A stretch of 64,000 nt of DNA. It comes from Scilla litardierei (Eukaryota > Streptophyta > Magnoliopsida > Asparagales > Asparagaceae). The notes below the pieces were generated by a model. The model made no database searches, was not told the DNA's origin, and worked only from the letters and a program-made list of their open reading frames with translations. Shown here piece after piece: positions 7,316 to 32,931 of this stretch. Where the stretch lies: NCBI GenBank assembly GCA_030789695.1, contig CM061142.1:150805266-150869265 (forward strand). The letters are read 5' to 3'. Position 1 is the first letter of the stretch. Every line of letters starts with the position of its first letter. Made by a program: the position numbers and the translations under genes.

Positions 7316-8270
7316 AAGTAGAATCCGTATTCATACGCACTCCCCCAAGCTAAACCTTTCGATACCATGGCCCTGACGATTCCTGAGTCGTGGGGATCCG
7401 GCTACTCGGTGTCATTGTGGGAATAATGCACATATTATTTTTTCTATTCACAAATGTAGATTTTCTCTCTGTCTTTTTTGGAAAGCATGGGTGGGTTAAG
7501 CAAGATTAATCCTCAGTGATGGGTGATATGTTGTTATCCAAGTTTCGAGGGATTATAGTCCATTATTCTCAACTATTTGCTCTACGGTCCAAGCATAATG
7601 TGTGTTCCTAAGGTTCAACCTAGGTCGGTTTCAAGTATTTATATCTTAGGGACCATGAAGACGGCCAAAGTTAGGATACTACATGGGATTAAAAGTGGAG
7701 ACACGTCCTATTCAAATATCCTAATTAACATCGTGGAAATCGAGTATAAAAGTTTAGAAAATGAAATTCGACTTAAGATTCCACATATATAAAAATTAGA
7801 ATTCGAAAAATTCTCTAAGCGAATGCAAGTATATACATATGGATGCATGATGATGCAAGATGCATGATGTGAATGCGAATATTTTTGTTGTTTTCGATTT
7901 TTTAATTTTTGTGGTTTTTTGAATGCTTATAGGAATATAAACATGGTGCAAATGAAGAAAGTGAAATGTGAAAATGAAAAAAGGAAAATGGGGATGGAAA
8001 AATAAGAAAATATGAAAAGGGAAAATAAAGATAGATAAGGAAAAAAATTAAAAGAAATAACAAGCGTGAGACGCTCCTCCCCCATGCTGAACTGAGCGTT
8101 GTCCTCAACACGATAAAAATCATGAGAAAGATAGATCGTGAGGGCAAATGTGTAATAGAAAGAGGAGATACATGTGCTTCTCCTCCAAGCTGAATTGAAT
8201 CGTTCCCTAAGAATGAGAATGAGTGAAATTGAGGGTTATGTGATCTGGGGGAGGTGCAAAAGTCATCCCA
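7316..8270 (-). other. Athila-like 3' untranslated region with hairpin/polypurine motifs
   Basis: On the minus strand there are three AGCTTGGGGGA-like purine motifs (near 7337-7350, 8077-8090 and 8182-8194), as in the other two Athila copies here. The one near 8080 is preceded by a short stem, GTGTTG-AGGA-CAACGC. The order ORF1, then repeated motifs, matches 22295-23879 and 59328-60921. No gene is seen. Confidence 0.6.
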
Positions 8271-9686
8271 TCAAACAGTACCACCATCAGGTGGTGGCTG
8301 GGTGGAGGATATGGGCAGAAGTGATGGTTCGTCCGAAGACAAGGAAATGACTGTGACATCCTCGGGTGGTGGTGAAGTGTGTGGATCAATAGTAGATGTT
8401 GGAGGGGTGGGGTAGTAGTGGTGTGTCAGAAGAGGGTATGGATGTGGCATCAGTGGGTATTGGTGAAGAAATGGATGGGACCACACTGGCTGGAGGAGGC
8501 TATGGAATACGTATGGATGGCCGGGATGATGGTGGTGCACTAAATGTGAGGTAGTGAAGAAATGGGTGGAATCACTGTGGCAGGAGGAGGTGAAGGTGGT
8601 GGTGTGGGTAGGAGGGTGGGTACTGCAGTAGGAAAATGACCCTGAGCGTGATGCCATCGGTAGACTGAGTCAAACTGTGACTTGAGAGTTGTGAACAAAG
8701 GTGAGACCGTCTACTAAGGTTCTGAACTCAGATATGGTGTCCCTGAATCCCGTCAAGGTGCTAATTGTGGAAGTTTTAAAATCCCTAAGCTCCTCTTCCA
8801 CTCGAGTGATGCACTCGAGGTGAGAAAGGGGTGGATGAGCAGTGCTGCTAGAGGCTTCGCCATGCAGGCAAGATCTCATATGAAACTGATGGAGTGTGGG
8901 CCTGACGGTAATGGAATGTGTGGGACCAGGAGGGATGACAGGATCCTGGATAGGCTGAGGCTGGGCCTGAGGCTGTGGCTGTACATGGTTAAGATGAGGC
9001 TGAGCAGGTTGTGCCTAAGTACCCTGGGCAAGATCAAGATCAGCTGGAAATATCCACTGCATGGCAGTCCTAGCACCAAAACGAGAAAAGTTTGGGACTC
9101 TAGTGTAGGGGGTGTGATGGATCTTGTAAAGCTAGAAATATCTCTCGTCCCCAATAGCTTTGATCATATGCATGTTGGCGAGGACGGAGATGTCAAGGGA
9201 AGTGGGGCCTGGGACAGGGTGCATGGAATCAGGGATCTTGTATGAGACATTAGGAAGCATAGTGATGATAATAATAAACCCTTTGCAGCAAATGCGAGAT
9301 TGTAGGTTGGCGAGGGTATGGAGAAATCTCTTGGTCAACCACGACCCGGCATGAAGGTGGTATCATGGGGATGCAGTGCCATCGTCGTGGACAACACATG
9401 GTTGGGTCATGCAGCATATGAAGAAAATCTCCTCTTGAGAGACGTGGCTAGTCTCATATCTACAGAAGATAGAATTCGCAATAATGTGATGCACGATGCG
9501 AAGGAAAGGATGGATAATGATGGAGGCCTTCCCCCGTGTGATGGGGAAATGAGAAAGGCAAGTAATCTTCTTCCAGAAGGTGTTCTGATCATATTCGTTA
9601 GGATAGGGATCGTTGTGCAAGTATGCATTAGGATCCATATCCAAGGGCCATTTGAAAAGGGGGTTCAGTGAGTTTGTGGACGACAA
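8271..9686 (-). pseudogene. Athila ORF1-like protein remnant
   Basis: The minus-strand segment 9686-9363 resembles the middle of the ORF1 proteins at 21064-22294 and 60922-62742. Shared features are the stretch ending NSIFCRYETSHVSQEEIFFI and the following hydrophobic block. Frameshifts then lead into segments near 9154, 8879 and 8657, the last rich in Pro, Ser, Thr and His like the tails of the other copies. The N-terminus is missing. The family resembles the Athila ORF-1 protein (Pfam PF03078), whose function is unknown. Tat1 abuts its 5' side. Confidence 0.7.
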
Positions 9687-9722
9687 TATTCCTTATTCAT
9701 TAAGCAGAACGTGAACCCCCGT

Positions 9723-10150
9723 TGTTGGCTCCTAAAAGAATTTACTTGTGATATTTAAGCACACCGCGGACCTGCTCACATCCTCGCTCCTGGTAGAATG
9801 GTATAAGAAATATCAGCTGAGAAAGTAGAGTTCTAGGTCTTAGACCTCGGACCTTGGAATTGCAACCCATTTACATTTGTCCTTTTGTCCATTTATAGGC
9901 TGTTCCTCTTGGATTGTGTGTAACCGTGCCTCATTGATTCGGGCACGATCTCCTCTGAGATTCGAGATAATGGCTGCCCATTTACTCGGCCCCATTAACC
10001 TCCTCTGAATATTAGCGCCAGCCTAACGGTCGAACGATCAATTCGTCTGACTCGGTAATACCCCGCTATGAGCGCCGAGTATCGGGTTGTGGGTGCCAAA
10101 TAGGTCAAGTATCCGGATACTCCAGCAGGATTCGTACCCGTGCACTAACA
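9723..10150 (-). repeat. Tat1 3' LTR, shortened
   Basis: Its minus-strand start TGTTAGTGCACGGG is identical to the right LTR. Similarity runs from 9795 to 10150; leftward of that the two LTRs do not match, so this copy is truncated or rearranged. The left limit uses a TG on the plus strand and is uncertain. Confidence 0.7.
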
Positions 10151-10353
10151 ATTGCCCCATCATACGTGCCTCATAAACTACACTGATTGAGACCAAATGA
10201 TGAGTAATCTCCTTAAATGCGCACAGTTTTCGAAACATTTGATTTGATTTGTTCCACCAAAACCCTTTTGTCTTTGAAGAGATCTCCGTTGTTTCTGGTG
10301 GCTGTCTTCGGACACATTTCATCCATCGAACGTCAGTCGGTTGAATTCATTTG

Positions 10354-10361
10354 TATAAAAA
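10354..10361 (+). promoter_or_regulatory. TATA box for Tat1 antisense gene
   Basis: TATAAAAA lies 150 bp before the ATG at 10511 and is followed by a GA/CT-rich leader. The equivalent gene in Tat2 has a TATA box at nearly the same distance. Confidence 0.5.
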
Positions 10362-11320
10362 AGAAAAGCGAGGAAGAAGAAGAGATCTTTCTGCTTCTCC
10401 TTCCTCCTCGTTTGGAAAGCTTGCTTCCAGTGCTGCCCTCTCAGAGATCGTCTGTTCTTCTTAAGGTATTCCACCTTGATCAACTTTGATTCTCTTTAGA
10501 TCCGTCAGGTATGTTTGCTCCAGTCATAATGAAGGAGCCGACCTATGAGGAGCTCATGGCACGCCTTCGGCCCCCTCGATGCGAGGAAGTTCCTGGAAAG
10601 GGAAAGGATTGAACCAAAGCTTCCCATTTACCAGAGGGATCGGAGCTTGAAGATTCCTAAAGTCATCTTAGATATGGCCCCTAGGTTTTCCCTCGATCTG
10701 ACTGATGAGGTCTGGCGAGGTTGTTTCTGTCATCCTTTTAAGGTTAGGGTCCCTAATTCAGATGAGAGAGTGTTTTTTTTCACAGAAGAGTGAGGTTGGG
10801 GTGTATCTTAAAGCTTTTTTCCTAGGACTCCAGTTTCTCCTTCATCCCTTCATTATAGAGGTTCTGTGCTCTTCGGAGCTTTCCATTTGTATACTCACTC
10901 CTCAAGCTTTTCCCTCCTTAGTTGGCTTCATTATACTGTGTGAGCTCTGTGGTGCTCGGCCAACCCTTGGACTATTCAGGTACTTCTTCTGGATAATACC
11001 TGACCCTCACCGAGTGTGGTACCTTGTCGCTGCTCGCCCGGGAGTGAGAATCATATACAACCTTCTGATTTCAGACCCTGGGTGGAAGGATACCTTTGTG
11101 TTTGTCATCCTTCCTGACCTGGGACCATTGCTCAATAGTTGGAGTTCTCCGAATCCTGAGCTTGCGGAAGAGTCTCGGTTATCATCGGGGGAGGCCAGAG
11201 CCAGGTTGTCACCAGGCGAGGCTGAGGTGGTGAAGCTTCTTCTGGGTCGACCGAGGCGAGAGAGGTCGACTCAGTATCTGTCGGATGATCATACGTTGAA
11301 GACCCTTTTGTGGAGCTTGG

Positions 11321-11385
11321 GTAATGTATTTTGACTCTATGTCTTTATCTTTGCCACTCAATATAATTATATCTGTTCTTTACAG
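11321..11385 (+). other. Intron 1 of Tat1 aORF (65 bp)
   Basis: GTAATG donor and a T-rich TTCTTTACAG acceptor, splitting a codon after its first base. The upstream exon ends encoding LLWSL. The Tat2 aORF has an intron at the same place and phase. Confidence 0.75.
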
Positions 11386-12198
11386 ATATGACTAACAGAA
11401 ACCGACGGAGTGGTGATTCTGGAATAGATCGAGTCTATAAGGAGAAGCGAAAGAAAAAGAGGAGTGCCGAAAGGTCGAACATTCGTGCTGAAAGGTCGAG
11501 CGCTCATGTTGAAGAGTCGAGCTCTAGATCTCCCCTCCCAATTAACCAAAGATCTTCTTCCTAGGGGGTGAGGTTAGGCAGACCTCGAGGCCATCTTCTC
11601 GAGACTACTCAAGCGAGGCCTCAAGCCAGGCTCACGTGCGGTCTGATGTGCCCCTAGCCTCCGTTGTGGTTTCGGAGCCTCCGGTTGAGGTTGAAATCGA
11701 TGTTGCTGACGTTACTGAGCCGACTGAAGCTATCGGCCAGAAGAGGGAGATGCCCTCCCATGGGGAGGAGGAGTCAGGAGAGGAGGCGAGTGGAGGAGGA
11801 GGATCCTCTCCCTTCGCCCTTGGAGAAGGGTATGGGGGTCGACCCTCTCGACCCTCAGGGGGCGATGGAGACTCCTTTGGTGTCTCAAGCTCCTGTGATC
11901 CTCCTTCTAGATCAGTGGCCCTGGGGAGGCATTATGTCGCACGTTCCTTTGGTCAGCTCGATCCTTGCAAAGTTTGATAGCTCGTTACTGCTCAATCAGC
12001 TTTCGTCTCGATACTATAGGCCGATACATGGTGACTTTTACCTACATCCCTTTGCCATTGGAAGGGAGGAGTCGGCCTTGTTGGAATTTGGGACGACTGC
12101 TTGGTTGGTGGAGAACTCGATTCCCCCTAGGGATCTGGAGTTTCTTCAGGTTGGACCTCGCAAGGGTGGCCAACTTTTTTGTAGGAAGGGGATACCAG

Positions 12199-12263
12199 GT
12201 ACATCTTCTGCCTTCCATCCACTGACGCCAAAGTTAGCCATCCCTGACTAATCTTTTTTACAG
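12199..12263 (+). other. Intron 2 of Tat1 aORF (65 bp)
   Basis: Donor CAG/GTACAT and acceptor TTTTTTACAG, between codons (phase 0). It joins the middle exon to the coiled-coil exon, as in Tat2. Confidence 0.65.
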
Positions 12264-12809
12264 ATGTCTATTCTCGACACCGTGTTGCGTCGTTAAGCTG
12301 TCGACTCGATCGAAGGAGGTCGATAGGTGGCGGATGCAGAGTACAAGGCGTTTGAGCTTGAGGCTCGGATGAAAGAGGCGGAGGAGGGCCTGAAGAAAGC
12401 CCCGAGGCTAAGGCAGCAGCTGAGTGGGCGGCTGTGGAGGCTAAGAATAGTTTCTTGTCCCTGTCGGTCCTTCGCAAGTCAGTCGAGCTCCAGTGGAAGA
12501 CAGAGAGGGCTCAGCTTGAGACGGAGCTTGACGCTTTCAAGAAGGAAGCGTTTGAGCTCCGAGCCAAAGCTTTCAACTCGAAAAGGTGGGCGGATGCTTG
12601 CAAGGCAGAGGCCACTAAATCTAGGGCCAAAGTCGGCGCGCTCGAGGAGGCCGATGCAAAGGATAAGGCAGAGCTTACAGCTAGGCTTAAAAGGCATTGG
12701 AAGCTTTCACCAGCATCTTTGCATTCGGGGGCACTCCTCCTCCTTCTTCGGCTGGCAGGTCTTAGTTTAGGTTTTGTAATCCTTTTTCGCTTCTGTTTCT
12801 TTAGACATG

Positions 12810-12815
12810 AATAAA
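12810..12815 (+). terminator. Polyadenylation signal after Tat1 aORF
   Basis: AATAAA sits 45 bases after the stop codon and is followed by T/G-rich sequence, a plausible 3' end for the plus-strand transcript. Confidence 0.5.
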
Positions 12816-13860
12816 ATTTGTTGTGACTTTTGCGCTCTTATCTACTATTTGAATATGTGTGTGCGTATGGCCCCTCAACAACTTAACTTTCCATAGATTA
12901 GAGATTGATGATAAGTTTAGTCGTTGGTAAGATAGGTGCATAAAATAGATTGAACACAACCCTTTAAACCATAAATCATGCTTCGTTTAGTACCAAGGGG
13001 CAATGCCCCTTAGAGTCAACGAAAGTCGGGGGTAGTGAGGAACGAGGCCCCTTTGACTTACGGCCGACGACTGTCGCGGGTCGTTCAGTGGCAAGGGGTA
13101 ATCCCTCAACTTACGTCTGACGACTAAGGTCATTCAGTGGCAAGGGGCGATCCATCGGCTTACGGCAGACGAGCGTCGTGGTTCGTTCAGTGTCGAGGGG
13201 GATCCCTTCGTCTTACGATTGACGACAGGGGTTATTCGGTGTCAAGGGGAGAGGTCCCTTCGACTTATGGTCGGCGACCGTCGTGGGTCGTTCAGTGGCG
13301 AGGGGCAATCCATCGGCTTATGGTCGACGAGCGTCGTGTGTCGTTCAGTGGCGAGCGTGGATCCCTTCATCTTACAGCTAATGACATGGGTCATCCGGTG
13401 GCGAGGAGCGAGGCCCCTTTGACTTATAGTCGACAAGCGTCCTGGGTCATTCAATGGCAAGAGGGGATCCCTTGGACTTACGGCTGACGACTATGGTTAG
13501 GAAAATTGTTGGAAAAATATTGAACGAATATCTACTTTGCATTTATCATGAACATGCATCAGATAAAAGACGAAGATAGATTTCAATCATTTACCCCTGC
13601 TGTTTCAATCATTGATAATACTTCCGCAAGTGCTCAGTGTTCCAAGGATGATGAAGTTCTCTATCATCCAATGTAACGAGTCGGTAGGTGGAGGATAGAG
13701 TAGATCAATCTTTGTGTAAGGTCCTTACCACTTCGTAGCGAGCTTCCCTTGCTTGAGAATCTCGGGAGTGAAAGCAGCCTTACACAACACCAATTCACAT
13801 ACACAGAAGATGTATTCGTGAACCCTTGAGTTGAAATGGCAGGCCATGCATCCTTTTTAT
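12816..13860. other. Tat1 spacer between integrase and aORF
   Basis: No gene. It holds the tandem array at 13081-13500 and otherwise unremarkable sequence. The convergent ends of pol (minus) and aORF (plus) face each other here. Confidence 0.6.
13081..13500. repeat. Tat1 tandem repeat with three-part higher-order unit
   Basis: A TCGTTCAGTGGCGAGGGG-like core recurs at 13081, 13130, 13183, 13232, 13288, 13341, 13391 and 13447. Spacings run 49, 53, 49, 56, 53, 50, 56, so from 13130 a 158-159 bp block of three subunits repeats twice. Short frames across it are repeat artefacts. Confidence 0.88.
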
Positions 13861-14820
13861 TTAGTGAGGGTCGCCAGAGCCTGTTCGCGGATGTTGTCCA
13901 CCAGTTTGTAGGTTGAGCTCGAGGCCTTCTGAGTTTTGTTCATCATCATAGTATTGGAGATGAAGCGGTCGCTTATGACTTCCACTAGGACGACGGTTTT
14001 GCATCCGTAAGCCAGCATGAATGGCGTTTCCCCTGTCGAGATTTTGTGGGCCCTTCTGTACGATCATAGTATGTCGGGGATTTCATCTGGTCAGGTCCCT
14101 TCGAGCCCGGTTATTCTCTTCTGAGGGGGCCCGAGGATGCTTTTGTTGGCTAGCTCTGCCAATCCATTCGACTGGGGATATGCGATAGAGGCGAAGTGTA
14201 GCTTGATCTTCAGCTCTGAGCAGAAGTCTCTGAAGCCGGCAATGTCGAATTGTGTCCCATTGTGGGATGCCAAAACAACAGATGATGGACTTTCAGACGA
14301 AGCTCCGATCTTCCTTCCAGGTTATTCGGGACAGGGGCTCTGCTTCGATCCACTTTGTAAAGTAGTCGATCGCCACTATTAGGTACTTACATTGCCCACT
14401 CGTTTATTTGAATGGACTAAGAAGTCTAGTCCCCACTTGGTGAAAGGAATTGGACTGATGATGGGGATCAGATTAGTGATCCTTGAGAATTTTTGTTAGG
14501 TCAAGTACCTTCGAACATATTCGACGGCATCTTTGAACATCGTTGGCCAAAAATACCCTTGTCTTACGGCCTTCAAAAGTATAGCTCCCCCCTGAAATGG
14601 TTTCTGCAATCGCCCTCATGGATCTCTTGGATCACGTAGTGTGCTATGGGGCTAAACATTTAAGTAGGGAAAAACCATATACCTGGTCCATCGCCTTTTG
14701 TACAATGAACCATCGAGCAAGACGAATTGGTAGGCCTTCTGTTCTAGCTTTCATGCATCCACTGGGTCGGTTGGCTTCTCTCCTATGTTAAGGTAATGGA
14801 TTATGGGATCCATCCAAGTG
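13861..14820 (-). pseudogene. Tat1 integrase remnant
   Basis: The clearest part is 14273-14091, with HNGTQFDIAGFRDFC and then YPQSNGLAELANKSI, matching the catalytic core of Tat integrases. The family has DNGTQ where this copy has HNGTQ, so the second acidic catalytic residue is lost; the Glu of AELANK is kept. Further frames down to 13861 continue the domain after shifts. Integrase inserts the DNA copy into the nuclear genome; this copy cannot. Confidence 0.72.
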
Positions 14821-14822
14821 AT

Positions 14823-15505
14823 TCATTGGTCAAGGATTAGCAGCTCCTGCTTTAATCCACTGGGATGTGGTAGACGTTGTACATACACTGTTCGACCGAG
14901 CCTCGTGGAGGAGGATGATGCGAGCTTCGACAGGGTGTCAGCTCGATGATTCTTTGACCTTGGTACATGATGGATTTCCACGTGTCTGAACTTGACAAGC
15001 TCTGGCTTTGCAATTTGCACGTAACTTTGCATTGAGTCTTCGCATGCCTCGAAAGTTCCGTTAAGTTGGTGGACGATGAGGCTGGAATCACTGAGTAGTT
15101 GGACCACTTTCGCTCCTAGGGCTCGTGCCACTCAGATTCCGTTAATGGCTCTTCGTACACAGCTTCATTAATTTTGGTCTGGAAGTCGAAGCGGAGAGTG
15201 TACTCAAATATGTTGTCTGCTGACATTAGGACAATTATTCCGGCCCTGCTCCCAGCTTGAGTGGCCAAACCGTCAACTTGTATGATCCAGGTTCCCTCGT
15301 CTTCCATTGTATCATTTGGTGAATTGACACATGTCGAGGGGGAGGGGGTTGCTTCAGGTAGCATGTTAGTAGCACATACCTCCTCTTTTGGGCTTTCGTC
15401 GTAAGTGAGTTCGACAATGAAGTCGACGAGAACCTGCCCTTTCATGGCGGACCTCGATTTGAATTTGATATCGAATTCGCTTAGCTCGACACCCCATTTA
15501 GTCAT
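14823..15505 (-). pseudogene. Tat1 second RNase H (aRH-type) domain
   Basis: Segments 15505-15116 and 15131-14823 together resemble the extra RNase H found C-terminal to the usual one in Tat elements. WIIQVDGLATQAGSRAGIIV contains the first acidic residue and IHHVPRSKNHRADTLSKLAS is the typical C-terminal motif. A frameshift lies near 15120. It would degrade RNA in RNA/DNA hybrids. Possession of two RNase H domains supports the Tat assignment. Confidence 0.72.
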
Positions 15506-15960
15506 TCTCCCTGAACAATAAAGCCTCTTTCTGGTCTATTCTAGGGGAGTGTCGGTGAGGACCAGGATGGTGTGCACTTGGAAGTACGGTCGCAACCTCT
15601 TCGCAGATTGGATCAGCACGAAAGCCGTCTTCTTTATCCTCGAATAATTGATCTCCGCGCCTTGAAGAGCCTGAGTGACGTAGTAGATGGGTCATTGTAT
15701 CCCGGAGTCTTCTTTGACGAGTGTGGAGCTTATGGCCTCAATGGTTGCATCCAAATAGATGATGAGTTGGTCACCTTTATCTGGCTTGGTCAAGAGTGGC
15801 ATGCTATGGAGGCACTCCTTTAACTCAGAGAAAGCCTTCTTGCAGTCTGTGTCCCACTCGATGACTCTTTTGCCACTCGATGCAGAGGCTATCGCCTTCT
15901 TCAGCACTTTGAAGAAAGGCAATGACCTCTCGACTGACTTAGACTAGAATCAGCCCAAAG
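15498..15960 (-). pseudogene. Tat1 RT-associated RNase H remnant
   Basis: Segment 15922-15692 begins MPFFKVLKKA and continues through the connection region to IIYLDATIEAISSTLVKE, where the family has LYLAVS or similar. The next frame (to 15498) continues as the RNase H body. At least one frameshift or stop separates the parts. Confidence 0.65.
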
Positions 15961-16049
15961 CAGCTATTCTTCCGTTCAGCCGTTGGAGATCTCTGAGGGT
16001 TGAAGGCTCCTTCATCGTAATGATCGTAGCGATCATGCTGGGCCTCAAT

Positions 16050-16637
16050 CTATCGATTTTTCAGCTTGAAACCGAGGAACTTCCCTGACTGAACCCCAAA
16101 GGTACATTTGACATGTTTCAATCGACGGTTGTATTGCCGGATGTGTGCGAATATCTCTCGGAGATCTGCAACGTGATCAATCGGCTTTTTCGACTTGACC
16201 AACATGTTGTCGACGTAGACTTCTAGGTTTCGACCGATTTGATCATCAAAGACTCCGTTCATCATGCGTTGGAAAGTAGCACCTACATTTTTCAAACCTA
16301 ATGGCATTTTGGTGTAACTGAAAATACCTCGATCAGTGATGAAAGAAGTTTTCTCTTCATCCTCTGGTTCCATCTGGATTTGGTTATATCGTGAGAATGT
16401 GTGCATAAAGCTGAGGAGCTCGTAACCCAAAGCGCTGTCGACCAGATGGTCGATTCGTATCAGGGGGTAACTATCCTTTGGGCACACTTTGTTGAGGTCG
16501 GTCAAGTCAACACACATCCGCCATTTGTCGTTTGCCTTCTTCACCATCACGACATTAGAGGGCCTATCAGGATAGTTGACTTTTCGAATGAAGCCTGCTT
16601 CTAGAAGTCGTTCCACCTCTTCGAGCGTAGCCTTCAT
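16050..16637 (-). pseudogene. Tat1 reverse transcriptase, catalytically dead
   Basis: The frame is uninterrupted for 195 codons. Motifs in order: VNYPDRPSNVVMVKKANDKW, CVDLTDLNKVCPKDSYPL, FMHTFSRYNQI, MPLGLKNVGATFQRMMN and YVDNMLVKS. The family has an Asp where this copy has His in the FMHTF block, and YVDD where it has YVDN. Two of the three metal-binding Asp residues are therefore gone. Upstream, 16640-17065, the protease-RT linker is readable only in broken frames. Confidence 0.87.
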
Positions 16638-17065
16638 TTTTTAACCCCCCATGTTTCCCTTCTTTTACTTCATGGGTGTGGAAGTCAGGTCGACCTCCAA
16701 CTTGTGTGATATTACCTTGGAGTTGATGATGGGCATATCCTTCGGTGACCAGGAAAAAATGTCTCCATGCTCTCTCAGGAGAGCGATCAACTGTTTCCTT
16801 AGGTCGAATGGGAGCAGTGATCCAATAGAGACAATTTTTCCCTCTTCTTCGAAGATCTGGATGTTCTCCGTTTCTTCGACTGTTGCAGGCTGTCAATCTT
16901 CACCTTGGGGATCGACTAGGTTTGTCTGCTTGATCCTCCTTAAAGCGGTGGACAGCGTATATCACGACTGTGCCTGTTTTTGATTCCCTCTTGCCTTTTC
17001 GACTCCCTCGGGGGTCTGGAATTTGATCATCTGATGGAAAGTTGAGACCACCGCTTCTATAGAGT

Positions 17066-17692
17066 TCAGTAGTGGTCTTCCAATAAATCTGTTGTATGTC
17101 GAGTTAATCTTCCCCACCATGAACTGGTTAGGTGAGTGATTTGTCGAGGATACGTGTCGAGGGTCACCGGTAGGGTGATGATGCCTGCTATTAGGGTAGA
17201 ATGTCTAGTGAATCCCACCAGGGGCCCCGAACAAGGTGGCAACTCCACAGATGACAACCTCATCCTTTTCAACATAGTGAAGAAGAGTATGTCGCAATAT
17301 CTTCCGGTGTCGACAAGTAATCTTTTTACGTCGATCCCCTTGATGGTAGCCGTGATGACGACGATGTCATCATGCGACAGTTCCACACCCTCTAGATCTT
17401 CATCTGAGAAGGAGATAGGAGGTGTAGAATCCCTGGGGCGCTTTCGACCCACAGACACTAACATCAACCTTCCGGCGTAGGAGCTTTGGAGAGAGGTTGA
17501 TAGCTCCAGGTGTGGGGGACCTCCCATTATCAAGTTAATGAGACTGACGCTGGGAGGTGTTGTGGCATCCTCGGAGAATGTTGATGTGTGAGTCGACATG
17601 GTCGAGTGGTTCATCGATCGAGATGTCGAATCGTGGTTTTCCACAGATGGTGCCAAACATTTAAGGCCAAAATTGACCAAGACAGTTGTCAA
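17066..17692 (-). pseudogene. Tat1 protease region, gag deleted
   Basis: The open frame starts inside LTR and primer-site sequence, showing that the usual start and gag are lost. It then carries LINLIMGGPP and a retropepsin domain with LLVDTGRYCDILF (active-site DTG) and PLVGFTRHSTLIAG. After about residue 180 the frame leaves the expected course and ends early. Retropepsin would cleave the gag-pol polyprotein in particles. Confidence 0.75.
17638..17655 (-). other. Tat1 primer binding site
   Basis: On the minus strand it reads TGGCACCATCTGTGGAA, close to the TGGCGTCGTCTGTGGGA of Tat2 and to the TGGCGCCGTCTGTGGGA seen in many Tat elements. I did not identify the tRNA. Confidence 0.7.
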
Positions 17693-18400
17693 GCTGACGT
17701 GGACTCTTCATGCTGAGTTGAAGCCTCGTCAGCCGTTTAAAGTGGGACCCTAGGTTGGAATAACCTGGGTCGAGTGATGATAGTTAAAGATGGTGCAATA
17801 CTCAATCGACCTTCAAGCAGCTGATGCGTCGATCGCTCGAGCCTATGAAGCTCAGTGACGACCTTCGACGATGGATGATGACAGTCGATCTGCACCACAT
17901 GGACACATTAGGGGGGTCGGATCTGGCTTCTGACCCAGATACCCTCCGATGCTTAAGTTAGTTTGGGAACTTAAGGTTGAGAGAGAGATATGAGCAGCTG
18001 AGATCGACCCACGGAGGTTCGCCTCAGATCTGTCGTCGCTAGCTCTATGGTATAAGAAATATTAGCTAAGAAAGTAGAGTTCTATGTCTTAGACCTCGTA
18101 CCTTGGAATTGGAACCCATTTACCTTTGTCCTTTTGTCCATTTATAGGTTGTTCCTCATGGATTGTGTGTAACCGCCCCTCATTGATTCGGTCACGATCT
18201 CCTCCGGGATTCGAGATAACGACTGCCCATTTACACGGCCCTATTAACCTCCCCTAGAATATTAGCACCAGCCTAATGGTCGAACGATCTGTTTGTCTGA
18301 CTCAGCAATACCTCGCTATGAGCGATGCATATCGGGTTGCAGGTGCCAAATTGGTCGGGTATGCACATACTCCAGCAGGATCCGTACCCGTGCACTAACA
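17657..18400 (-). repeat. Tat1 5' LTR (about 744 bp)
   Basis: Minus-strand start TGTTAGTGCACGGG. The inner end at the primer site lacks a clear CA and seems mutated. Its outer 355 bases match the left LTR. The rest has no partner in the left copy. Confidence 0.75.
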
Positions 18401-19058
18401 CAACATATAAGCATTAATGCACAATATCACAAATCTCAATATCACAAATCTTTCCCAAATATTCTCCCATTTTAGTTATCATCAAAAGTGTACTTACGAA
18501 GTCAATTTCATACCACGTGCAAAAAAGAGAGCATTATAAATTACGACATACACTTGCATGTAGACATTCATATAATAAGCAAGTCAAATCCAATAAAAAT
18601 TATAACAAGGACTTCTACACCAACGTGTAAGTGTGATGATTAAACATTGAAGCACATAAGGAGAACTTTCACGAAATTCAACCAAAACCAATCCACATTT
18701 TCATGTAACATGATATCACCTAGGATTGATTTTCCCCATCTCATTAAAAATGAGTTCAAGATACCACACCTAAAACATAGCCTATAAGGACTCTTAGATG
18801 TGGGGTGGCATTGCTTGACGAGTATAATACCAACGCTAAAGTTCACTCTTAAAGCTTTTGTTGGATATTGTTCCTCGCCCGCGATGCATAGACTAGAACA
18901 CCAGAAGTGGACGGTGCGTTATAGTATGTATAGAATGTCGAATTCTAGGGAGGCGGTCGTCTAACGCTGAGCTTTTTGTGGAAGGAGGAGAATGTGTGGT
19001 CGGGGTTGTCACGTGTGATTTGGTTGGTTGGTTGAGGGAAGTGGAATTGGTACTGTTA
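18401..19058 (-). other. 5' internal sequence of an Athila-type element
   Basis: It lies just inside the tRNA-Asp primer site on the minus strand. No gag is recognisable; the longest frame (18846-18640) has no familiar motif. The left side is cut by Tat1. Confidence 0.45.
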
Positions 19059-19076
19059 TCCCCGGCAACGGCGCCA
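19059..19076 (-). other. Primer binding site matching tRNA-Asp
   Basis: The plus strand reads TCCCCGGCAACGGCGCCA, identical to the 3' end of plant tRNA-Asp with its CCA. The minus strand is therefore the primer site typical of Athila/Tat elements, with the 5' LTR to the right. Confidence 0.92.
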
Positions 19077-19082
19077 AAAACT

Positions 19083-19516
19083 TGTCTCGTCTCAAAATAA
19101 TGTGAGCGCTACTCCCAAGTGCAGGAGATCGAACAAGTAATAATCCTGGTGAGTCCAGGTACCGTATCCATGGGACAATTGACCATCAAAACCACGAACT
19201 TCAGTTTGTAAAGAGTAATAATACGGTAATAACCAACCACCCAAAGATATGGTATCAAGAGTTTTAAAACGAAAAAGAAAATCATATGATAATTACGGGG
19301 TATTCAATATGGGGTACTAATATGGAGAGTATGTGTTGGTAGTGATTTCGTTAAGGTGTGTGCAATCAATGATTAATAATACCTTTTCTATAACTCAACA
19401 TTTCGTCCGGTTAGGGCACGAGAACGTCAGAAAATATAGCGATAAAGCACATGAAATAGTGCCGAAAAGTTAATCACGTATAACGTCAATTTCATAAAGA
19501 AAATACACACAAGTGC
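19083..19516 (-). repeat. Inner end of an Athila-type 5' LTR
   Basis: Six bases beyond the primer site the minus strand ends in CA. The sequence beyond has features I associate with ends of this LTR class: CAAGTGCAGGAGATCG, a CAAGTAATAA stretch and GTATCCATGGGAC on the plus strand. The outer part is missing where plus-strand Athila-P begins. Confidence 0.65.
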
Positions 19517-19519
19517 CCT

Positions 19520-19984
19520 CTCGGGTCGCATCACGCTTATAGGACGGCTTTCAAGACTCCAATCGGCACAACTTCCTACCGGCTTGTGTACGGGAAGGCA
19601 TGCCATCTACCCGTGGAATTGGAACACAAGGCGTTTTCGGCAATCAAGAACCTAAATTTTGACGCCAAGGAGTTTGGGGGCCACCGACAGCTACAACTAA
19701 ACAAGCTCGACAAGATCCGGCTCAATTCTTATGAAAATGCCCGGATCTACAAGGAGAAGTTGAAGCGGTGGCACGATAAGCGCATCCTGAAGAGGGAATT
19801 CAAGGAAGGAGACTTAGTTCTCTTATTCAACTCGAGGCTAAAGCTTTTTCCTGGAAAGCTCAAGTCGAGGTGGTCGGAACCCTTCTGCGTCACCAAGGTC
19901 TTCCCGCACTGTGCTATTAAGATAATGGGAAGAGATGAACAGTTCAAAGTCAACGGGCAGCACCTAAAACATTATGCGGTATGA
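19520..19984 (+). pseudogene. Athila-P integrase C-terminal fragment
   Basis: Open from the left break through to TGA at 19982-19984. The first readable part is [20 protein letters not shown], then the [16 protein letters not shown] block, [35 protein letters not shown] and [10 protein letters not shown]. This is the end of the catalytic core plus the C-terminal DNA-binding part of Athila integrase. The catalytic residues lie in the lost part. No stop interrupts what remains. The pol frame ends here and non-coding signals for ORF1 follow. Confidence 0.88.
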
Positions 19985-20068
19985 GAACCAGCATTCTCTC
20001 TGGTCGGAATCTCAACAACCGATGACTCGTCTTCAAACCCTCCGGATCTGAATTGACCACTAAATGAG

Positions 20069-20119
20069 GCGTCGAGCAAACGACGCTAAACAAAAGCGCT
20101 TCATGGGAGGCAACCCATG
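20069..20119 (+). other. Two adjacent hairpins after integrase
   Basis: First: GCGTCG - AGCAAA - CGACGC at 20069-20086. Second: CATGGG - AGGCAA - CCCATG at 20102-20119. Both stems are perfect six-mers with six-base loops, preceded in the second case by GCGCTT. The GCGCTT...GGGAGGCAACCC block is a widespread Athila signature. The second hairpin recurs in Athila-2 with a paired base change. Confidence 0.85.
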
Positions 20120-20239
20120 TTCTAAACCCTCACCTTTGTTTTTAGGAATATTTTTAGGTTTATTTCTCTTATTTTGTTGAATAAATTCAGCAACGTGAAC
20201 TTTCGTCGAGAGACTTCGGCTATTTGTGGACTTTTGCAG

Positions 20240-20617
20240 GAAACAAGCCCCCAACCGATCGGTTGAGCTCTCAACTGATCGGGTGGGATGTATCAGAAAA
20301 AATCCATATATCTGTTCTTCAGCGAACCGGTCGGGTGGAGCAAACCGTGACCAGGTGGCAGATCATGTGAGAAGAGCTGAACTCTCGGATTTTTTGGGAT
20401 TTAAATCAACCGATCGGTTGATTGAAGCCGTGGTCGTGTGGCCATCCGGGTGAAAAGCACAGTGATCTCAGGAAAATTTGGGAAGCGGTCAATCGATCGG
20501 GTGAAAACTCACCCGACCGGTTCACCTGTAGCTGTTGACCGACAGAAGATTGTCGAAACTTACCCTACAGATTGGGTGAACCCTCAACCGATCGGTTCTC
20601 CTTCGCCCCTATACATA
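20240..20617 (+). promoter_or_regulatory. Internal palindrome array and TATA-like box upstream of ORF1
   Basis: Facing copies of ACCGATCGGT / ACCGATCGGGTG and degenerate relatives appear near 20256, 20324, 20409, 20495 and 20590. TATACATA follows at 20610, 20 bases after the last core. The Athila-P LTR has the same motif family and the same 20-base spacing to its TATA box. A CT-rich leader leads to ORF1 about 450 bases on. A separate promoter for ORF1 is inferred, not shown. Confidence 0.7.
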
Positions 20618-20803
20618 CTCCCTCTCACCCGGCCTTATTCACCCGACACCCCAAATTCCCGTTCGCACGTCTCCCCTCTCTCCATCTTCCAAATTGATCT
20701 CCTCCAGCAACCCCTCCACCCCTAAATCCACACCCTCACTCATTCCCATACTCTCCCACCATCAACACCCGTCCCATCAACAACATTCACTCGCCAAACG
20801 TCC

Positions 20804-20817
20804 AAACCCTAACCCTA
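20804..20817 (+). promoter_or_regulatory. Telo-box-like motif in ORF1 leader
   Basis: AAACCCTAACCCTA, the plant telo-box core in tandem, within a pyrimidine-rich leader. Similar motifs lie upstream of the extra ORFs of Athila-2 and SIRE-B. Confidence 0.5.
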
Positions 20818-21063
20818 GCCCCCAAATTTTCGAAAATTTCAATTCTTGTCGGATCAGCGAGCGACGGCTTCCCAAATCGCTTCCTCATACCGCTTGGGGT
20901 CTTTTGGGTGCTTGATCTTACAACATTGATGGGTAACCTCTTTCCACTCTTCACATTTCTTTCAATTATATGCATAGTCTTAAATTTTTGTCTACACACT
21001 TCATCTACTTCATCATCTTCATGGACACTTTGTCCCATTATATCATTCTTCCCCCACGCCATC

Positions 21064-22294
21064 ATGATGTCTGGGAAGGGAAAGGAGATTGCATCATCGT
21101 CACGCAGACATCCCCTATGCGGACCTTTTCCCCTTCTTTCCTTGGTATCAAACCTTCTTCTGAAGAGCAATCCGATTGTTTGCAAGCCCTTCTTCATCGC
21201 CCAATTCGACCTACTCTTTTCGTCGATTCCCGCACTCTCGAATCTTTTGGAATATTTAGGGGCATCCGTGCACTTTATCGCTTCATAGGTTGCGATTACC
21301 TTCTACATACCCATGCGCACACACACCGGAATCTCACACTCAACTTCCTCAGTTCTCTAGAAATGTCCGAGTATGGTTTCACCTTCCGCGCCTTCAATGG
21401 CGATTTTGCCATGAGTTTTCACGAGCTTAAAAATATTTTGAATTTCCCTCACCCCGATCGTCATGTTGAATGTTCAACTCACGATCGGTCTGATTTCTTT
21501 TCTTACTTTCGTGACAATGGTGTCTGGCAACGATTCACCCGGTATGCCACTTTTCCCTCGGTAGCTCTCGCCTCCTACATCTTACATTTGTGCAACCGCT
21601 TCGCCCATTACTTCCTTGCCAAAACCATTTTCTCCCGTGTGGATGTTTCCACGGTGTCCCGGGATGAGCTCCTCTTTCTTTACGCCATGTCCCATGACAG
21701 GATTCATGGTCATATCCCATTACCCATAAACACCGCTCATTGGATCATCCACGAGATCTTAGCTGTTAGCCGCGCAACCTCTGGACTATCTGCTGCGGTG
21801 GGATGATTACTCTTATTGTCAGCTGTGTTTTGAGGCTGCCGCCCCACCTACCTATTCTACCGGGACGTAGCCATATCAATCGCTACTACTTGATCGAAAT
21901 CGTTATGCTAACTCCCTTTGGTGAGGAGCATGCAGTCTACCTCCACAGTCCTGTCAACACTCCTTTTGACATCCTCCCACCCTCCTCTTCGGAGCGCCTC
22001 CCCATTCACATTTCACATCTACCATGGGAGTTCTACCCGGATCCTTGGTACACCACACTCGTACACTTTCCACCCTTGGATCCTCCCGATTGGCACCCGT
22101 GTGTCGGTTCACCCGGTGCCATCATTATCCACCACGATCCACCGATAAATTTCGATCCTCCTGTGGTCCAGCCTGTTGCCCCTTCCTCTCCTATTCGTAC
22201 ACCCTCTCCTTCGTCCTCAGAGGATTCCTTCCTCCATTATTCACCACCCTCCTCGCCATCTCCTTACCATTCAATCGAAAGCGACTCCGATTGA
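21064..22294 (+). pseudogene. Athila-P ORF1 protein
   Basis: The likely start is the double ATG at 21064, giving MMSGKGKEIASSSRR. The frame must shift near 21110 to enter the long domain, which includes LHRPIRPTLFVDSRTLESFG, GFTFRAFNGDFAMSFHELK and FSRVDVSTVSRDELLFLYAM. It shifts again near 21790 and ends in a Pro/Ser-rich, acidic tail with TGA at 22292-22294. The protein resembles the Athila ORF-1 family (Pfam PF03078). I see no convincing signal peptide or membrane helix, so calling it an envelope would be unsupported. Function is unknown. Two other copies in the window share the domain. Confidence 0.8.
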
Positions 22295-22576
22295 CTTCCC
22301 CTTTGCATATTTCTGCATATTCATGATCATATCTTATTGCTAGCACTATCATGTCCAGCTTGGGGGAAGTCGACATTTTGTGTGTTTTGTAGTGTTTTTC
22401 TGTGTGGTGTGTTTGTCTATATATGTCATGTGGTGTGATTTTCTATCTTTTATCTTCCATATTTCTTTTTCTTCTCTTTATTTTTTAGTTTCGTTTGTGT
22501 GTTTTTCTCGTTTTTCATTTCTCTTTGTGTCGGTGCGTATCCCCCCATTTTCATTGCCCTCCTGTATTTACTTTTA

Positions 22577-22613
22577 TTGCATTGAGGGCAATGCAAGTTT
22601 CAGCTTGGGGGAG
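22577..22613 (+). other. Hairpin plus internal polypurine motif
   Basis: Stem TTGCATTG / CAATGCAA with loop AGGG, perfect over eight pairs, then TTTCAGCTTGGGGGAG. The same hairpin is conserved in Athila-M at 60645-60664. Confidence 0.75.
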
Positions 22614-23840
22614 TCGCACTTCGTGCGTCGTTTTGAGTCTTTTTCTTCGTTTTGAGTCGTTTTCACCGTGTTTTTCTTTTTCTTTCTTTCCTTTTTCTCC
22701 TCTCTCTCCTAGAGATGACCCATAATGATGAATTGCCATAGAATCACACATTCACATTCACTAACCCTAGGAAGCTGAGTCCTCTTGCATTTCATGCATC
22801 GTGTGTCCATTTTTCTTTTATGTGAGTCATGTGTCATGTCTAGCTTACGGTGTGCTTCTACTTTGTGATTTTGATTTATATACCTGTCCTGGAATGACCC
22901 CTAGATTATCATGCTTCAATTTGAATATACGGTATTTGCTTCTTCTGTTTGCCTCTATATGCATGTTATATTTATATCATATATTTCATTTCGCATTTGT
23001 CAGGATTCCACAGTTAGGACTAGGATAACCCATTTAGCCTATGCTCTGATTAGCGAAGAAAATCTCCCTTGACCAAGTGTCTAGAATCCGATTTCTTTTT
23101 TTATTTTACTTGGTGCAAATCCCCTCGTTGTGTACCGTTCTCCCACTTAGGAGAGTACACACATGTATATACCCCGAAATCCAAAAATCCAAAAAAAGAG
23201 AAGAAAAACCCAAAAAAGAAAAGAAAAGAGAAAAGAAAAAAATATGTATATCCAAAAATCCAAAAAAAATATGCAAATGCCCAAAACCCAAAAAAAATTC
23301 ATGTGTGAATATTTTGCTACCAACTGAGAATAAAGGGAAGGCGAGAATTTGCACCGAGTGTTCTCCTCCACATCATCTCAACCCCCATCATTTTCGAAAA
23401 CACTTGGAATAGGGACTTTCTAGCTATTATTTAGGCGATAGTGAGATGATTTTCTAGTCCCTAGTTGTGGAGTCCCTGACACATGATACGCTTCGATTCT
23501 TACTTTCTTCTCATGCATGCTTGAGCTACTATACACCGCTTACTTCAAATCAAATCGATATTTGGGTCTTTTCTTGGATTTGTGTATTTGGAGCTTATTG
23601 CATAATGTAGATAGTGACACCATTTGCTAGCACACGACCACACTCACTCGCGCTTCACCGTGTGGGCCCACGACACTTGTTTGGACTCGTTTTCTTTGGT
23701 TTAGTGTTGTGATTTATCACTTGCTTACTAGGTGTAGCGTCGTTGATTCTATTGGCCCTGACGGGCGATTAGGGATTTTGATTTCTCTTTTTTCTCTCTT
23801 TCTCTCTATTTTCTCTCTCTGAGCTCCTACTCTAACTCGT

Positions 23841-23879
23841 CTTCCTCGAGGACGAGGAAGGGTTCAGCTTGGGGGATTT
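23841..23879 (+). other. Hairpin plus polypurine tract before the 3' LTR
   Basis: Stem CTTCCTCG / CGAGGAAG with loop AGGA, perfect over eight pairs, then GGTTCAGCTTGGGGGATTT directly against the LTR start. This is the expected site for plus-strand priming. Confidence 0.82.
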
Positions 23880-25510
23880 TGACGTGTGTGTATATTTTAT
23901 TATTCATGCATGTCTTCTTTGTGTTTTTCCGTTGTTTTCCGTCGTCTCTTGCCCATTTTCTTGGGATTTTTAGTTTTCTTTCACTTTTTGGTGTTTTTGT
24001 GTATTTGCAGGAGATCGCCAGTGTAAGGGACACATAACAAGGATATCATAAGTCCCCGGAGCAACGGGAGGTGTCACGCATGATCCAGGGGGTCAAACGA
24101 CAAAGATCACCATTTTTCAGCCCCCACCCGATCGGTTGGACACAGCCAACCAATCGGGTGATGCACGCGTGTTCGACCCGGATGCAAGCTGAAGCGAAGA
24201 GCAGCATCAACCGACCGGTTCGCCGACCGGTTGAACACATCAGAGTTCTTGGGAATTTGGAGCTGAATTCCAACCGATCGGGTGACATCTCACCTGATCG
24301 GTTCACTGTAGCTGATTCTTCCAAAAGACGACCCGGAGAGCCCAACCAGCGGTTCCTTGACCGTGTGAAGTCGACGGAAGTCTCTGTCAATTTTGAGGAC
24401 AATTCCAACCCTGCAAGATCCAAACAATGACCCAGAGCTACCAACCGGTCGGACCAAGCGAGCGGGTGAAAGCTTTGAACGTCGATGCCGAAGTGCTGTA
24501 GCAGCTCACCCGATCGGTTGATACTTCAATTGATCGGGTGAATTCGTTTTCTATATATAGTTGCCTAGGTTTTCTGAAAACGCAGCTTTGTATTTTTCTG
24601 TCTTTTTCTCTATTTGTGACGGCTGGAATTTTATTGTTATCTGTAAGTTCTCTGATCTTTGTCAAACTTTAATATAGTCTTAATTGCATTGCTACTAGCG
24701 TGTTTCAATTGCTTGATCATGATTTTTACGGTTGATTTTCATTTAGTTTTCTTTTTAGCTATAATGTGTGAGTAGTTCCCAAATCTGGGATTTTGGTGGA
24801 AACCCCTTCGTGGGTTCTCCCTGATGCGTCCATAGGACTAGGATTTCGATAGTGATTAGGAATTTAGTTGGTTGCGTGGGGTGTTTCATTGTCATCGGTG
24901 GAAAAAAGACCACCTTTGACCGTAGGGCCAAGGGGGAATAAACTTGGCGGTTGACTCCCTAGCCATAGCTCACGCCCTTAGCGTAGACATCGAATCCTAG
25001 CGTGTGGGAGCGACAGGATGAGATGTTGGGAGTTATCATTGCGATATTAGTGCTCCTGGAGTTGGTCGGTGTTAATGGACATGGAAATGCCCATCGACCG
25101 AACCCGGGTAGTCTGGCGTATCATCCTGGGCACCGACCGGAATATCGAGCCCATGAGGACGCTGATATCACTCTTAAAGGCAACGTCTCACCACTAAACC
25201 CTAATTTCGATCGTTTTCCTATCCGTAGCGCGTAATAGCGAGAACACATGATAGGGCGGAAACCGAAGTCCTAGGTTTCCCGTTATATTGTTTATCCTCC
25301 GTATTTACATTCCGTGACAAACCATCGATCGATGGGGCTAGCTCACCCGTAGGGTGAATTGGTTCCTCTTAGAAACAAGCACAACCACGCCTCCCTGTGT
25401 TCGACCCCCAAGCCACACTACAACACCATGTGCTTGTGGTACAAATATTTTAAATCTGGTATCCCCCAATCCAACTGCATTCTATGAGATAAAAAATACG
25501 GGGGACGTCA
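23880..25510 (+). repeat. Athila-P 3' LTR (1631 bp)
   Basis: Starts TGACGTGTG and ends GGGGGACGTCA, so the termini are complementary (TGACGT...ACGTCA). Its end aligns with both Athila-M LTRs through the GACCCCCAAGCC, AAATCT and GGGGACGTCA landmarks. Contents in order: palindrome array, TATA box, leader. Confidence 0.85.
24120..24559 (+). promoter_or_regulatory. Athila LTR palindrome array and TATA box
   Basis: Facing CACCCGATCGGTTGG and CCAACCAATCGGGTG arms open the array at 24125-24159. Further pairs lie near 24214, 24275, 24440 and 24511. TATATATA at 24552 follows the last core by 20 bases. Similar arrays precede TATA boxes in the Athila-M LTRs. Confidence 0.75.
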
Positions 25511-29966: not shown

Positions 29967-31863
29967 TCACGCCCCGCTTCCCAAGTATGGAAGGTGAGAT
30001 GTGAGAAGGTCCGCTCGGACTTGGAGCTGTGAATCTACAGTCCAATACGCGTCTGTGAATGATTCAAATAGCACGTTCTTGCAATGCGATGAAACAATAA
30101 CAATGATAAATAGAAAGCAGACATAGAATTATCCAGCAACAACATCCAACAAATATTCCAACATCACAGAGAAAAGTCACAAAAGAAGTACATAGTCTGA
30201 CCAAAAGGCCTAAGACATGGCCAAAACATAAAGCAGAGAGATAGGTGCTACGCACCGAATCCTAACAGCAACCACTAAAAACAACAACTAAGGAAGTCTC
30301 CAAGTGAGTCTAGGACTGGTCACCAGTGTCCTCAAACTCATCCTCGGCAGGAACCTCGAACTCTACGCCCGCGTACTGCTCGTCCTCTGTAACTGACTCT
30401 GTCTCTAAACCTGATATATGACACCCAAAGAGAAGAGGGCACATGTCAGCAAAAGCCTCCCTAAGGAAAACGGATAGCTTTTGTGCAAGAATTAAATAAA
30501 AGTAAAGCGACTAGCAGTTCTAATGTGATGAAATGGCATGACATTAAAAGTGTGCAACAATTAAAATGACATGATGAAACAAGCATGCACATCGTAGCAG
30601 AAACTACAAAAACACTATTTTACGATTCACGATTCACTAATTTATCACTTTGTGCAAAGAGTTTCCGTCTTTTGGCTGAAGTGGCTGTACGGGCTCACTT
30701 CGACGCTCAAGCGACCGTTTAATTCTACCCCTCCACATGTATCGAGCGTTGGTTTTCTGGATCACGAGCTAGAAAGTGTTTTTCATTTGGCATAGGGGTG
30801 CACCTAGCCTCAATAGTTAACAATCTATTGTAGCGTGTGCTACACAATCTTGATGACATGGCAAGGTGCATGAGCATGGCAATAAGAAATTAAAAGTGCG
30901 TACAGATAATTTGAAAGTAAACATGGCATGCGGTATGAAATAAGACATGGTAAAGGTGTCTGATCTAGCTTCGTTATCAAGCTAGATCAACATAAGGCGT
31001 CTAGGCGACTTTCATTTCATCACCTAGTCTCTTTTACGCTAGTACAAAAATTGGCCTAAACGTGGCCTAAACAAACACAGACAAGTATCACTTGCATGTT
31101 TTCGGTGATGTCGGTGTCGTGTGTTCGTATGGGGAGCGGGAACGGTATAGAACGACTGGTTCTCTGTTTCGATTAAACATATCTCTGAATTAGGTTCGTC
31201 CCAACATAATTAAATAATAATTCATTCTATTAGGTTCTCTATCCTAGGGTGATGTCCATATCATATTATTAAACCAACTATCATATAACATATTGCTAGT
31301 AATGATACTACTAACATATTAAGAGTATTACTTTGTGTTGGACTAAAAAACATTAATGTCCTACTAATAATAATTCTGCCAACATTTTAATCATTGTTTA
31401 ACACAAATACTTATATAAAGGGGCTTACTGATTACAGTGCTCTTTGTCATCATTTTAGCTTATAGATATTAGTCAACAACATAGGTTACTGTTTGCTTGG
31501 GAGTCAAAAGGTAGGGTACTACTCATACTCTTTACACACATTGTTTCTTATAATAAAGGCTACCTACTAACCTCATTACAAAATGATCTACTGTTAATGT
31601 ATAAAATGTTCTTTTAATGCATGGGTAATAATGTTCATATATGAAATAAACTAACTAATATATCTTGTGTTTAACAGCCCATCATATATAAAACAATTAA
31701 ATATGGTTCTGCTAAGAAATGCAAGGCAATGGTCATGATCTTTATGGAGGTAATAACCTATATGTTTCAACAAAGAAATAGACATATAGATGGTACGGTT
31801 TGCAAGAGAGTTGTATTAGAATTCACAGCTATTACAAGGCTACAACTCATTGTTTAATAAACT
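29967..31863 (-). repeat. Chromovirus 3' LTR, distal part
   Basis: The plus strand starts TGTCACGCCCCG, which is the complement of the LTR end on the minus strand. It stops at AAACT, where Tat2 begins. No gene is seen in these 1.9 kb. Confidence 0.8.
31859..31863. other. Tat2 target site duplication, left copy
   Basis: AAACT here and at 39455-39459 flank Tat2 exactly, proving it inserted into the chromovirus LTR. Confidence 0.9.
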
Positions 31864-32931
31864 TGGTACGTCTATTTTGAGGAGGCCCAACAGCATGGGC
31901 CCAAAAGCGCGGCCTACTATACGAAATCATGGGGGGCCCAAGCCCACCATGCAAAGCCCGAAAGACACGAGCCCAGAAACCCAACTACCGATCAGAATCC
32001 CATTTACGAGATCAGGCCCGACCAACAAGGCCCCCTAGAGGACCCCCAAACGTCGATCCGACCCGACCCTGAAAACGCGCAAGTCACTCGCCCACTCCAG
32101 CAATAACCGTTCCCACAGGCCCGCTACCACTTAATGGCCGTTATGGGGAGGCGCTGGGATGGCGCAGGGAGCGGCGATGGGGAGGCGGATTGAGGGGGCA
32201 TGATTGGGGGCGGACGAGGGACGTGAGTCGTGGGCAATCACGACGAGAGGCCTATAAAAGGGCTAAAAGAACGACTGGACAGGGGGACCGCATCTCAGGT
32301 AACAAAACCTAAGGTACTCCATCAACGACCTAGTTCCCCCATTTCATCTCCTTCCCCCCGCTCATGCCGGAGGACGTCGTTCCGATCTCCTCTCGAGTCG
32401 AACCGTCCCCGCAGAGCCTCCTCTTTCAGATTGTCATCTGACTTAGGCATCGGAGGGGATTTGCCCGGAACCAAGGTCTGGCCTCCCTGACGAGTGTTTT
32501 CGTCTGTTCAGGAGGACGTCAGATCCGCGAGCCGAGGCTCCCCCTCCGCTCCACGCTGGCCGCGCATCAAACAAGACAATTGAGGCTACCCCTCGTTGTC
32601 CAACCGACCGAGGCCGAGCGCATCCATCCGAGCCGAGGCTCCCCCTCAGCTCCGCATCGGCCGTGCATCAAGACAAGGCGCCGAGGCTTCCCCTCGTCGT
32701 CCGACCGTCCGAGGCCGAGCATCTCACACCGGGCCGAGGCTTCCCCTCAGCCCCCTTGACGCCGAGGATCCAGACCCCGCCCAGCTGACGTGTTCCACGT
32801 CGTCTGCATCTCTGATTTGCGTCGCGTCTACACGTGCTCGAAGCACCCAAGGGACCCAAATCGGCCCCTTGACCACGTTGATCGGGCAGTCCACGGTCAA
32901 CGCTTCTGTAGTGAGAAAACACTCTGAAACA
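31864..32931 (+). repeat. Tat2 5' LTR (1068 bp)
   Basis: Starts TGGTACGTC (right LTR TGATTCGTC) and ends CTCTGAAACA. TATAAAAG at 32253-32260 follows GAGGCC and is the likely promoter for gag RNA. Open frames across it are repeat-coded and do not resemble proteins. Confidence 0.93.
32253..32260 (+). promoter_or_regulatory. Tat2 LTR TATA box
   Basis: TATAAAAG in a GC-rich setting; the same sequence is at 38774-38781 in the right LTR. Confidence 0.7.

Follow-up and report, generated by a model that had tools for sequence, protein, structure and literature searches.

Two palindrome arrays in one Athila element

The stretch of DNA analysed here, hereafter the window, is a 64,000-nucleotide segment of the Scilla litardierei genome (G000:C13:150805266-150869265, within the 3.68-Gb host genome). 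It contains an Athila element in which arrays of one palindrome family lie both in the long terminal repeat (LTR) and directly upstream of ORF1. The features of this element are the following.

19700..19983, plus strand: C-terminal end of the integrase, whose gene precedes the internal module; open reading to a stop at 19983; the corresponding open reading frame (ORF) of copy L018 matches Pfam rve
20251..20599, plus strand: internal palindrome array, eight sites (20251, 20271, 20323, 20406, 20489, 20509, 20564, 20584)
20526..20532, plus strand: CTGTAGC, beginning 11 bp past a core start; block common to the LTR module, from word comparison
20610..20617, plus strand: TATACATA, TATA-like box in the predicted promoter of ORF1
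20640..20932, plus strand: predicted leader of an ORF1 mRNA with a predicted start site; pyrimidine-rich (65% C+T over 300 bases from TATA+20), with AAACCCTA at 20804
20932..20937, plus strand: GGTAAC, splice-donor-like word (predicted splicing)
21021..21806, plus strand: open part of ORF1, ATHILA ORF-1 family (PF03078), from the Pfam match of the reading 20937-21806
23880..25480, plus strand: 3' LTR, ends approximate; LTR copies match from position 1-2 to about 899 of two LTR query pieces
24124..24541, plus strand: LTR palindrome array, nine sites (24124, 24146, 24207, 24219, 24270, 24290, 24454, 24506, 24526)
24306..24312, plus strand: CTGTAGC of the LTR module; distance from a core start 10 bp in the window copy (11 in eight other LTRs), from word comparison
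24552..24559, plus strand: TATATATA, LTR TATA-like box

A palindrome site was defined as the 16-bp form TCAMCCGATCGGKTGA with at least 12 of 16 letters matching. Between 8000 and 25480 there are 17 such sites in two clusters, eight upstream of ORF1 (20240-20620) and nine in the LTR (24110-24560), and no further site of that strength occurs outside both clusters in that interval. Shuffled versions of each stretch (1000 per stretch) contained at most two sites. The exact form ACCGATCGGT is present at 20254, 20409 and 20587, with one-mismatch LTR forms at 24127, 24210, 24273 and 24509; allowing up to one mismatch, the window holds 14 matches, compared with a mean of 1.23 and a maximum of 4 in shuffles. 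A chance origin of the arrays was rejected, the sites being far above the shuffle expectation, and the preliminary description of one palindrome family forming an array both in the LTR and between integrase and ORF1 was borne out by these scans. Pairs exactly 20 bp apart account for six of the eight internal sites and four of the nine LTR sites, the other LTR pairs being 22 and 12 bp apart. The paired palindrome had no match in the viral contigs searched.

The last GATCGG cores start at 20590 in the internal array and at 24532 in the LTR. In both places the TATA-like box lies 20 bases beyond the start of the core, as first described, provided that the distance is counted from the core start; counted from the core end, it is 14. 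Two more LTR places with the same spacing were found on the minus strand of the window, with TATA at 63653 and 58493. They belong to further Athila-like LTRs with palindrome arrays in the segment 57573-64000, where a PF03078 reading is also present at 61963-62802.

The palindromes might act on chromatin rather than as promoter sites, for example by offering CpG-rich sequence for methylation or for a silencing protein. Each full site contains two CpGs, and the palindromic boxes of Sireviruses coincide with CpG islands, according to the available part of the study describing them (PMC2829016). Such a role leaves unexplained the fixed 20-bp TATA distance in two places and the site-free remainder of the 17-kb stretch, and as a replacement for promoter function we regard it as improbable. 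A chromatin role could exist alongside a promoter role.

Retention of the module and its linkage to ORF1

Internal copies were searched for with window 20100-20960. Of 6022 candidates, 40 were scored (five further short matches were ignored), comprising the window's own copy at 100% identity and 39 others at 89-94%, one of which lies inside L018. Rather than being absent from most family copies, the internal array has six to eight sites in every one of the 40 (eight in 23, seven in 15, six in two). The TATA offset is exactly 20 in 33, 19 in one and 40 in one, and the box is missing in five. The LTR search listed 40 matches of 8087 candidates, and 20 LTR loci were fetched and read. Each of them holds 9-11 sites in its main LTR; the TATA offset is 20 in 18, 19 in one and 16 in one. 

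The spacing is also evident at the level of the genome. The pattern GATCGGKT-N12-TATAWA occurs 23,322 times (11,621 and 11,701 on the two strands), as opposed to 156 occurrences of the reversed pattern. Genome-wide, twelve shorter spacers together gave 2,841 matches versus 2,501 reversed, and eighteen longer spacers 18,610 versus 4,521 reversed. By the matches listed, contributors to the excess at longer spacers include boxes of the form TATATATA, which are counted a second time, partner sites at 40 and a genuine internal class whose offset is 21.

Among the first 100 matches to the N12 pattern, 19 had an internal-looking spacer, and 1.7 kb was fetched around 14 of them. These 14 internal loci have 7-11 sites each, with typical spacings of 20, 50-51, 83, 83, 20, 54-55 and 20; individual sites are gained or lost in several of them, and the usual partner site is absent from L081. 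An ORF1 reading follows the array in 13 of the 14. Upstream of it lies the integrase end in six loci and a protease-like end, as in the L019 ORF 6890-7777, in seven. The array thus remains in front of ORF1 regardless of the upstream gene. The L019 ORF had no Pfam match, and its counterpart in L017 matched aspartyl protease models of Pfam only below their cut-offs.

A total of 32 internal-type matches, namely the 19 internal-looking ones and 13 offset-21 places picked by eye, were located in the first 10.6 Mb of C1. In 24 of the 32 an LTR-type match lies 2-6.5 kb downstream on the same strand; none has one on the other strand. LTR-type matches flank 20 of the 32 on both sides, the nearest 5' one being at most 6 kb away in 17 and 14-15.5 kb away in three. 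Judged from this distance, the 17 would be short elements without most of pol, two of which (L074 and L076) still contain the integrase end. At L017, L019, L068, L070, L072 and L077-L080 the array is preceded by the protease-like end and not by integrase, and an ORF1 reading follows except in L080. These elements, from their sequences, are apparently pol-less yet retain the ORF1 cassette.

Probable common origin of the modules and divergence between classes

Without masking, the internal and LTR arrays of the window align over 98 bp at 72% identity, sites included. The longest common word in masked arrays was reached by 3 to 135 of 200 shuffles in nine internal/LTR pairs, a weak signal for any single pair. 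A masked-flank alignment in L017 beats all 500 shuffles; it is out of register with the window alignment and is not counted as proof. Measured from a core start, the word CTGTAGC begins at 11 bp in 17 of 18 internal arrays and in 8 of 9 LTR arrays. Of the 40 internal copies, 27 contain it, as do the arrays of 17 of the 20 fetched LTRs. Eight extra LTRs (L082-L089) were picked by the core-to-TATA pattern, and their offset of 20 therefore carries no evidence. Because CTGTAGC occupies a fixed place in both, the LTR and internal modules are likely of one origin.

The classes of elements differ strongly around these modules. L017 and L019 match the window at 84-96% in the LTR, the 3' internal region and the sequence that precedes the array, and in the leader and ORF1 they have no DNA match of at least 60 bp to it. 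When two classes are compared (window/L017 and L018/L019), identity in the array is 0.85 and 0.91 at motif columns and 0.72 at the others. Agreement among the 40 copies is 0.976 for non-CpG motif columns, 0.944 for the remaining columns of the array and 0.96 for the upstream region and leader. Across three classes and 101 between-class pairs, the partner site, which was not used in locus selection, has an identity of 0.79 (core 0.89), compared with 0.37-0.39 in the columns around it and 0.49 in the spacer to the TATA box; this comparison is ungapped, so that indels depress the flank values. Pairwise leader identity was uninformative, shuffled pairs averaging 0.68. Function is argued for chiefly by the survival of sites and spacing between classes while their surroundings diverge.

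Behind the same module stand two or more strongly dissimilar versions of ORF1, leader as well as gene (L017, L019, L068-L081). The window and L017 are about 90% similar ahead of 20300 and about 60% similar in the leader. From these sequences it looks as if the ORF1 cassette was exchanged between lineages, with the joint inside the array.

Beyond the TATA-like box, AAACCCTA is present in 38 of the 40 internal copies and GGTAAC in 35. The shorter word GGTAA occurs 310-360 bp past TATA in 12 of the 14 internal loci, and in 16 of 18 when the window, L017, L018 and L019 are added. The LTR has a splice-donor-like word of its own, GTAAGT, at window 24643-24648, about 90 bp past TATA, which was found in 17 of 19 fetched LTRs with TATA. 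This word is relevant to the proposal that ORF1 is expressed mainly from a spliced LTR transcript and that the internal array is no more than an enhancer or the remnant of a U3 segment that was copied. Splice acceptors have been predicted upstream of env in Athila and BAGY2, as stated in the available part of PMC2829016. Against this stand the LTR's TATA distance kept by the internal module together with its own downstream donor word, the annotated ENV ORF promoter of Athila6A (PMC4977677, available part) and the retention of sites amid changing surroundings, which is unexpected of a relic. Expression mainly by splicing from the LTR is accordingly considered unlikely.

The identification of ORF1 rests on Pfam. 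The stop-to-stop reading 20937-21806 matches PF03078 above the curated cut-off (E 5.8e-6), and further readings match the same family in L018 (E 9.8e-9), in L019 (E 1.2e-6) and at window 61963-62802 (E 9.3e-24). The PF03078 protein is found between integrase and the 3' LTR, as for the Athila lineage of Ty3/gypsy. Membership of the Sireviruses was rejected, the integrase being at the end of pol and ORF1 being PF03078. In the window copy ORF1 looks damaged, the frame used being open only over 21021-21806. The copy is also incomplete, because a 3' LTR is present and no LTR match, and hence no 5' LTR, was found in window 1-20000; the window copy is thus not bounded by two LTRs. A homologue search with the window ORF1 passed 0 of 434 candidates, and one with window 61963-62802 passed 1 of 532. 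The AlphaFold model of the latter protein has a mean pLDDT of 38 and is unusable as a structure. Relatives of ORF1 have basic N-terminal stretches, and Pfam gives PF03078 alone; the best 19-residue hydropathy is 1.81, so a membrane stretch is possible.

Downstream of ORF1 the polypurine-tract word CAGCTTGGGGGA occurs three times (window 22356-22367, 22601-22612 and 23865-23876), and only the last adjoins the LTR. One extra polypurine tract is mentioned for Athila4 and Calypso in the available part of PMC2829016. Elsewhere in the window, 1788-5775, 41596-45547 and 52018-53742 belong to a different repeat family and are 80-96% identical; blocks within each recur in steps of about 110 bp. A direct repeat (31863-32931 and 38384-39454, 96% identical) bounds a GC-rich stretch (56-62% GC at 32-40 kb) and probably represents another LTR element.

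A candidate ORF1 promoter and its relation to known systems

Taken together, the element carries one module twice, in the LTR and directly before ORF1, and it is quite probable that the internal copy is ORF1's own promoter, which would be switched on by the DNA-binding factor of the LTR. The original proposal of an ORF1 promoter built from the LTR's module is supported, as far as sequence comparison can do so, by family retention, linkage to ORF1, the between-class footprint and the common word at a fixed distance. The same DNA-binding factor, which may be encoded by the host or by the element, would act at both arrays. It would bind the dyad (ACCGATCGGGTGA-N4-TCACCCGATCGGT) in phase with the TATA box and so drive both promoters. 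The palindromes may be bound as pairs about two helical turns apart, the last dyad being placed about two turns ahead of the TATA box. In the LTR this arrangement would drive the genomic RNA. The internal module would drive a separate ORF1 mRNA, with an RNA polymerase II start near 20640 and a pyrimidine-rich leader of about 300 bases, probably containing an intron and spliced at the GGTAAC word before translation of ORF1. The duplication, from the LTR to a position ahead of ORF1 or in the opposite direction, likely predates the split of this genome's Athila classes; since then the module would have stayed linked to ORF1, also in elements that have apparently lost pol.

Several observations weigh against an internal promoter of this kind. 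In seven of the 40 internal copies no TATA pattern sits exactly 20 bp from the core start, and in an abundant class of internal modules the offset is 21. Selection of the 14 internal loci relied on the core-to-TATA pattern; one of them has no ORF1 reading and two have no donor word. With the sites masked, the LTR array and the internal array of the window are not significantly similar, 34 of 500 shuffles doing as well. Within one class, motif columns agree at 0.94 and the rest at 0.93 in both pairs, and the footprint depends on the between-class comparison because motif columns are not better kept within a class. This last equality is what would be expected if the arrays were carried along passively, being duplicated with the element and retained by nothing but descent, and the copies do stem from few source elements, so that any feature gets copied. 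The genome-wide spacing counts and the footprints between classes argue against such passive descent, to which we give hardly any credence.

An internal ORF1 promoter bears on the expression and role of plant env-like genes, which is an old open question. It provides a testable promoter candidate with an exact geometry (dyad, 20 bp, TATA), the core-to-TATA signature being present at more than 20,000 places in one genome, and the palindrome is usable as bait for its putative binding factor.

The idea of an env promoter is itself already known, and the double module of Athila is a geometrically sharper form of it. For Athila6A of Arabidopsis, start sites, ORFs and an intron have been defined and an ENV ORF promoter named (PMC4977677, available part). 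The present element resembles it in being an Athila element, Athila6A having an annotated env-like ORF promoter and an intron. The available part of that paper mentions neither a module common to the LTR nor palindromes, and the two were compared by description only. In Athila literature on internal promoters, env-like genes, ORF1 and palindromes, titles and the beginnings of abstracts for the most part, no module common to LTR and ORF1 was found. The maize element Grande carries gene23, an accessory gene with its own promoter between pol and the 3' LTR, antisense to gag-pol (review PMC7264820, available part). Athila ORF1 is likewise an accessory gene between pol and the 3' LTR; gene23 differs in its antisense orientation, and an LTR-like module is not mentioned for it in that part of the review.

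In foamy viruses the LTR and an internal promoter answer to one activator, Tas, according to the available parts of the reports (PMC8670036, PMC4929722, PMC7828637). Both Athila promoter candidates hold the same putative binding sites, and the second foamy promoter, too, lies in the 3' part of the genome. By analogy, ORF1 might be the element's own nuclear activator and not an envelope protein, recognising the palindrome pairs of the LTR and of ORF1's promoter, as in the Tas loop. The foamy activator is virus-encoded and shown to act, whereas ORF1 in that role is speculation here and a doubtful prospect. If true, it would account for apparently pol-less Athila elements retaining the module and ORF1.

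A close parallel is found in Sireviruses. In 13 elements palindromic boxes (RM boxes) lie in the LTRs upstream of TATA, and in the nine with env they also occur in the linker, mostly upstream of env; the four RM-bearing Sireviruses without env have no linker copies, and an internal promoter could not be established conclusively in that study (PMC2829016, available part). Similarly, the Athila palindromes are located in the LTR upstream of TATA and again before the env-like gene. Unlike the RM boxes, which belong to Ty1/copia elements and are of the CGG-CCG type, they are other palindromes in another superfamily, with sites often paired 20 bp apart and with an internal array followed by a TATA-like box at the LTR's distance. 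Athila, a Ty3/gypsy element, thus shows the plan reported for the Ty1/copia Sireviruses, and this common plan suggests either a common host factor or repeated invention.

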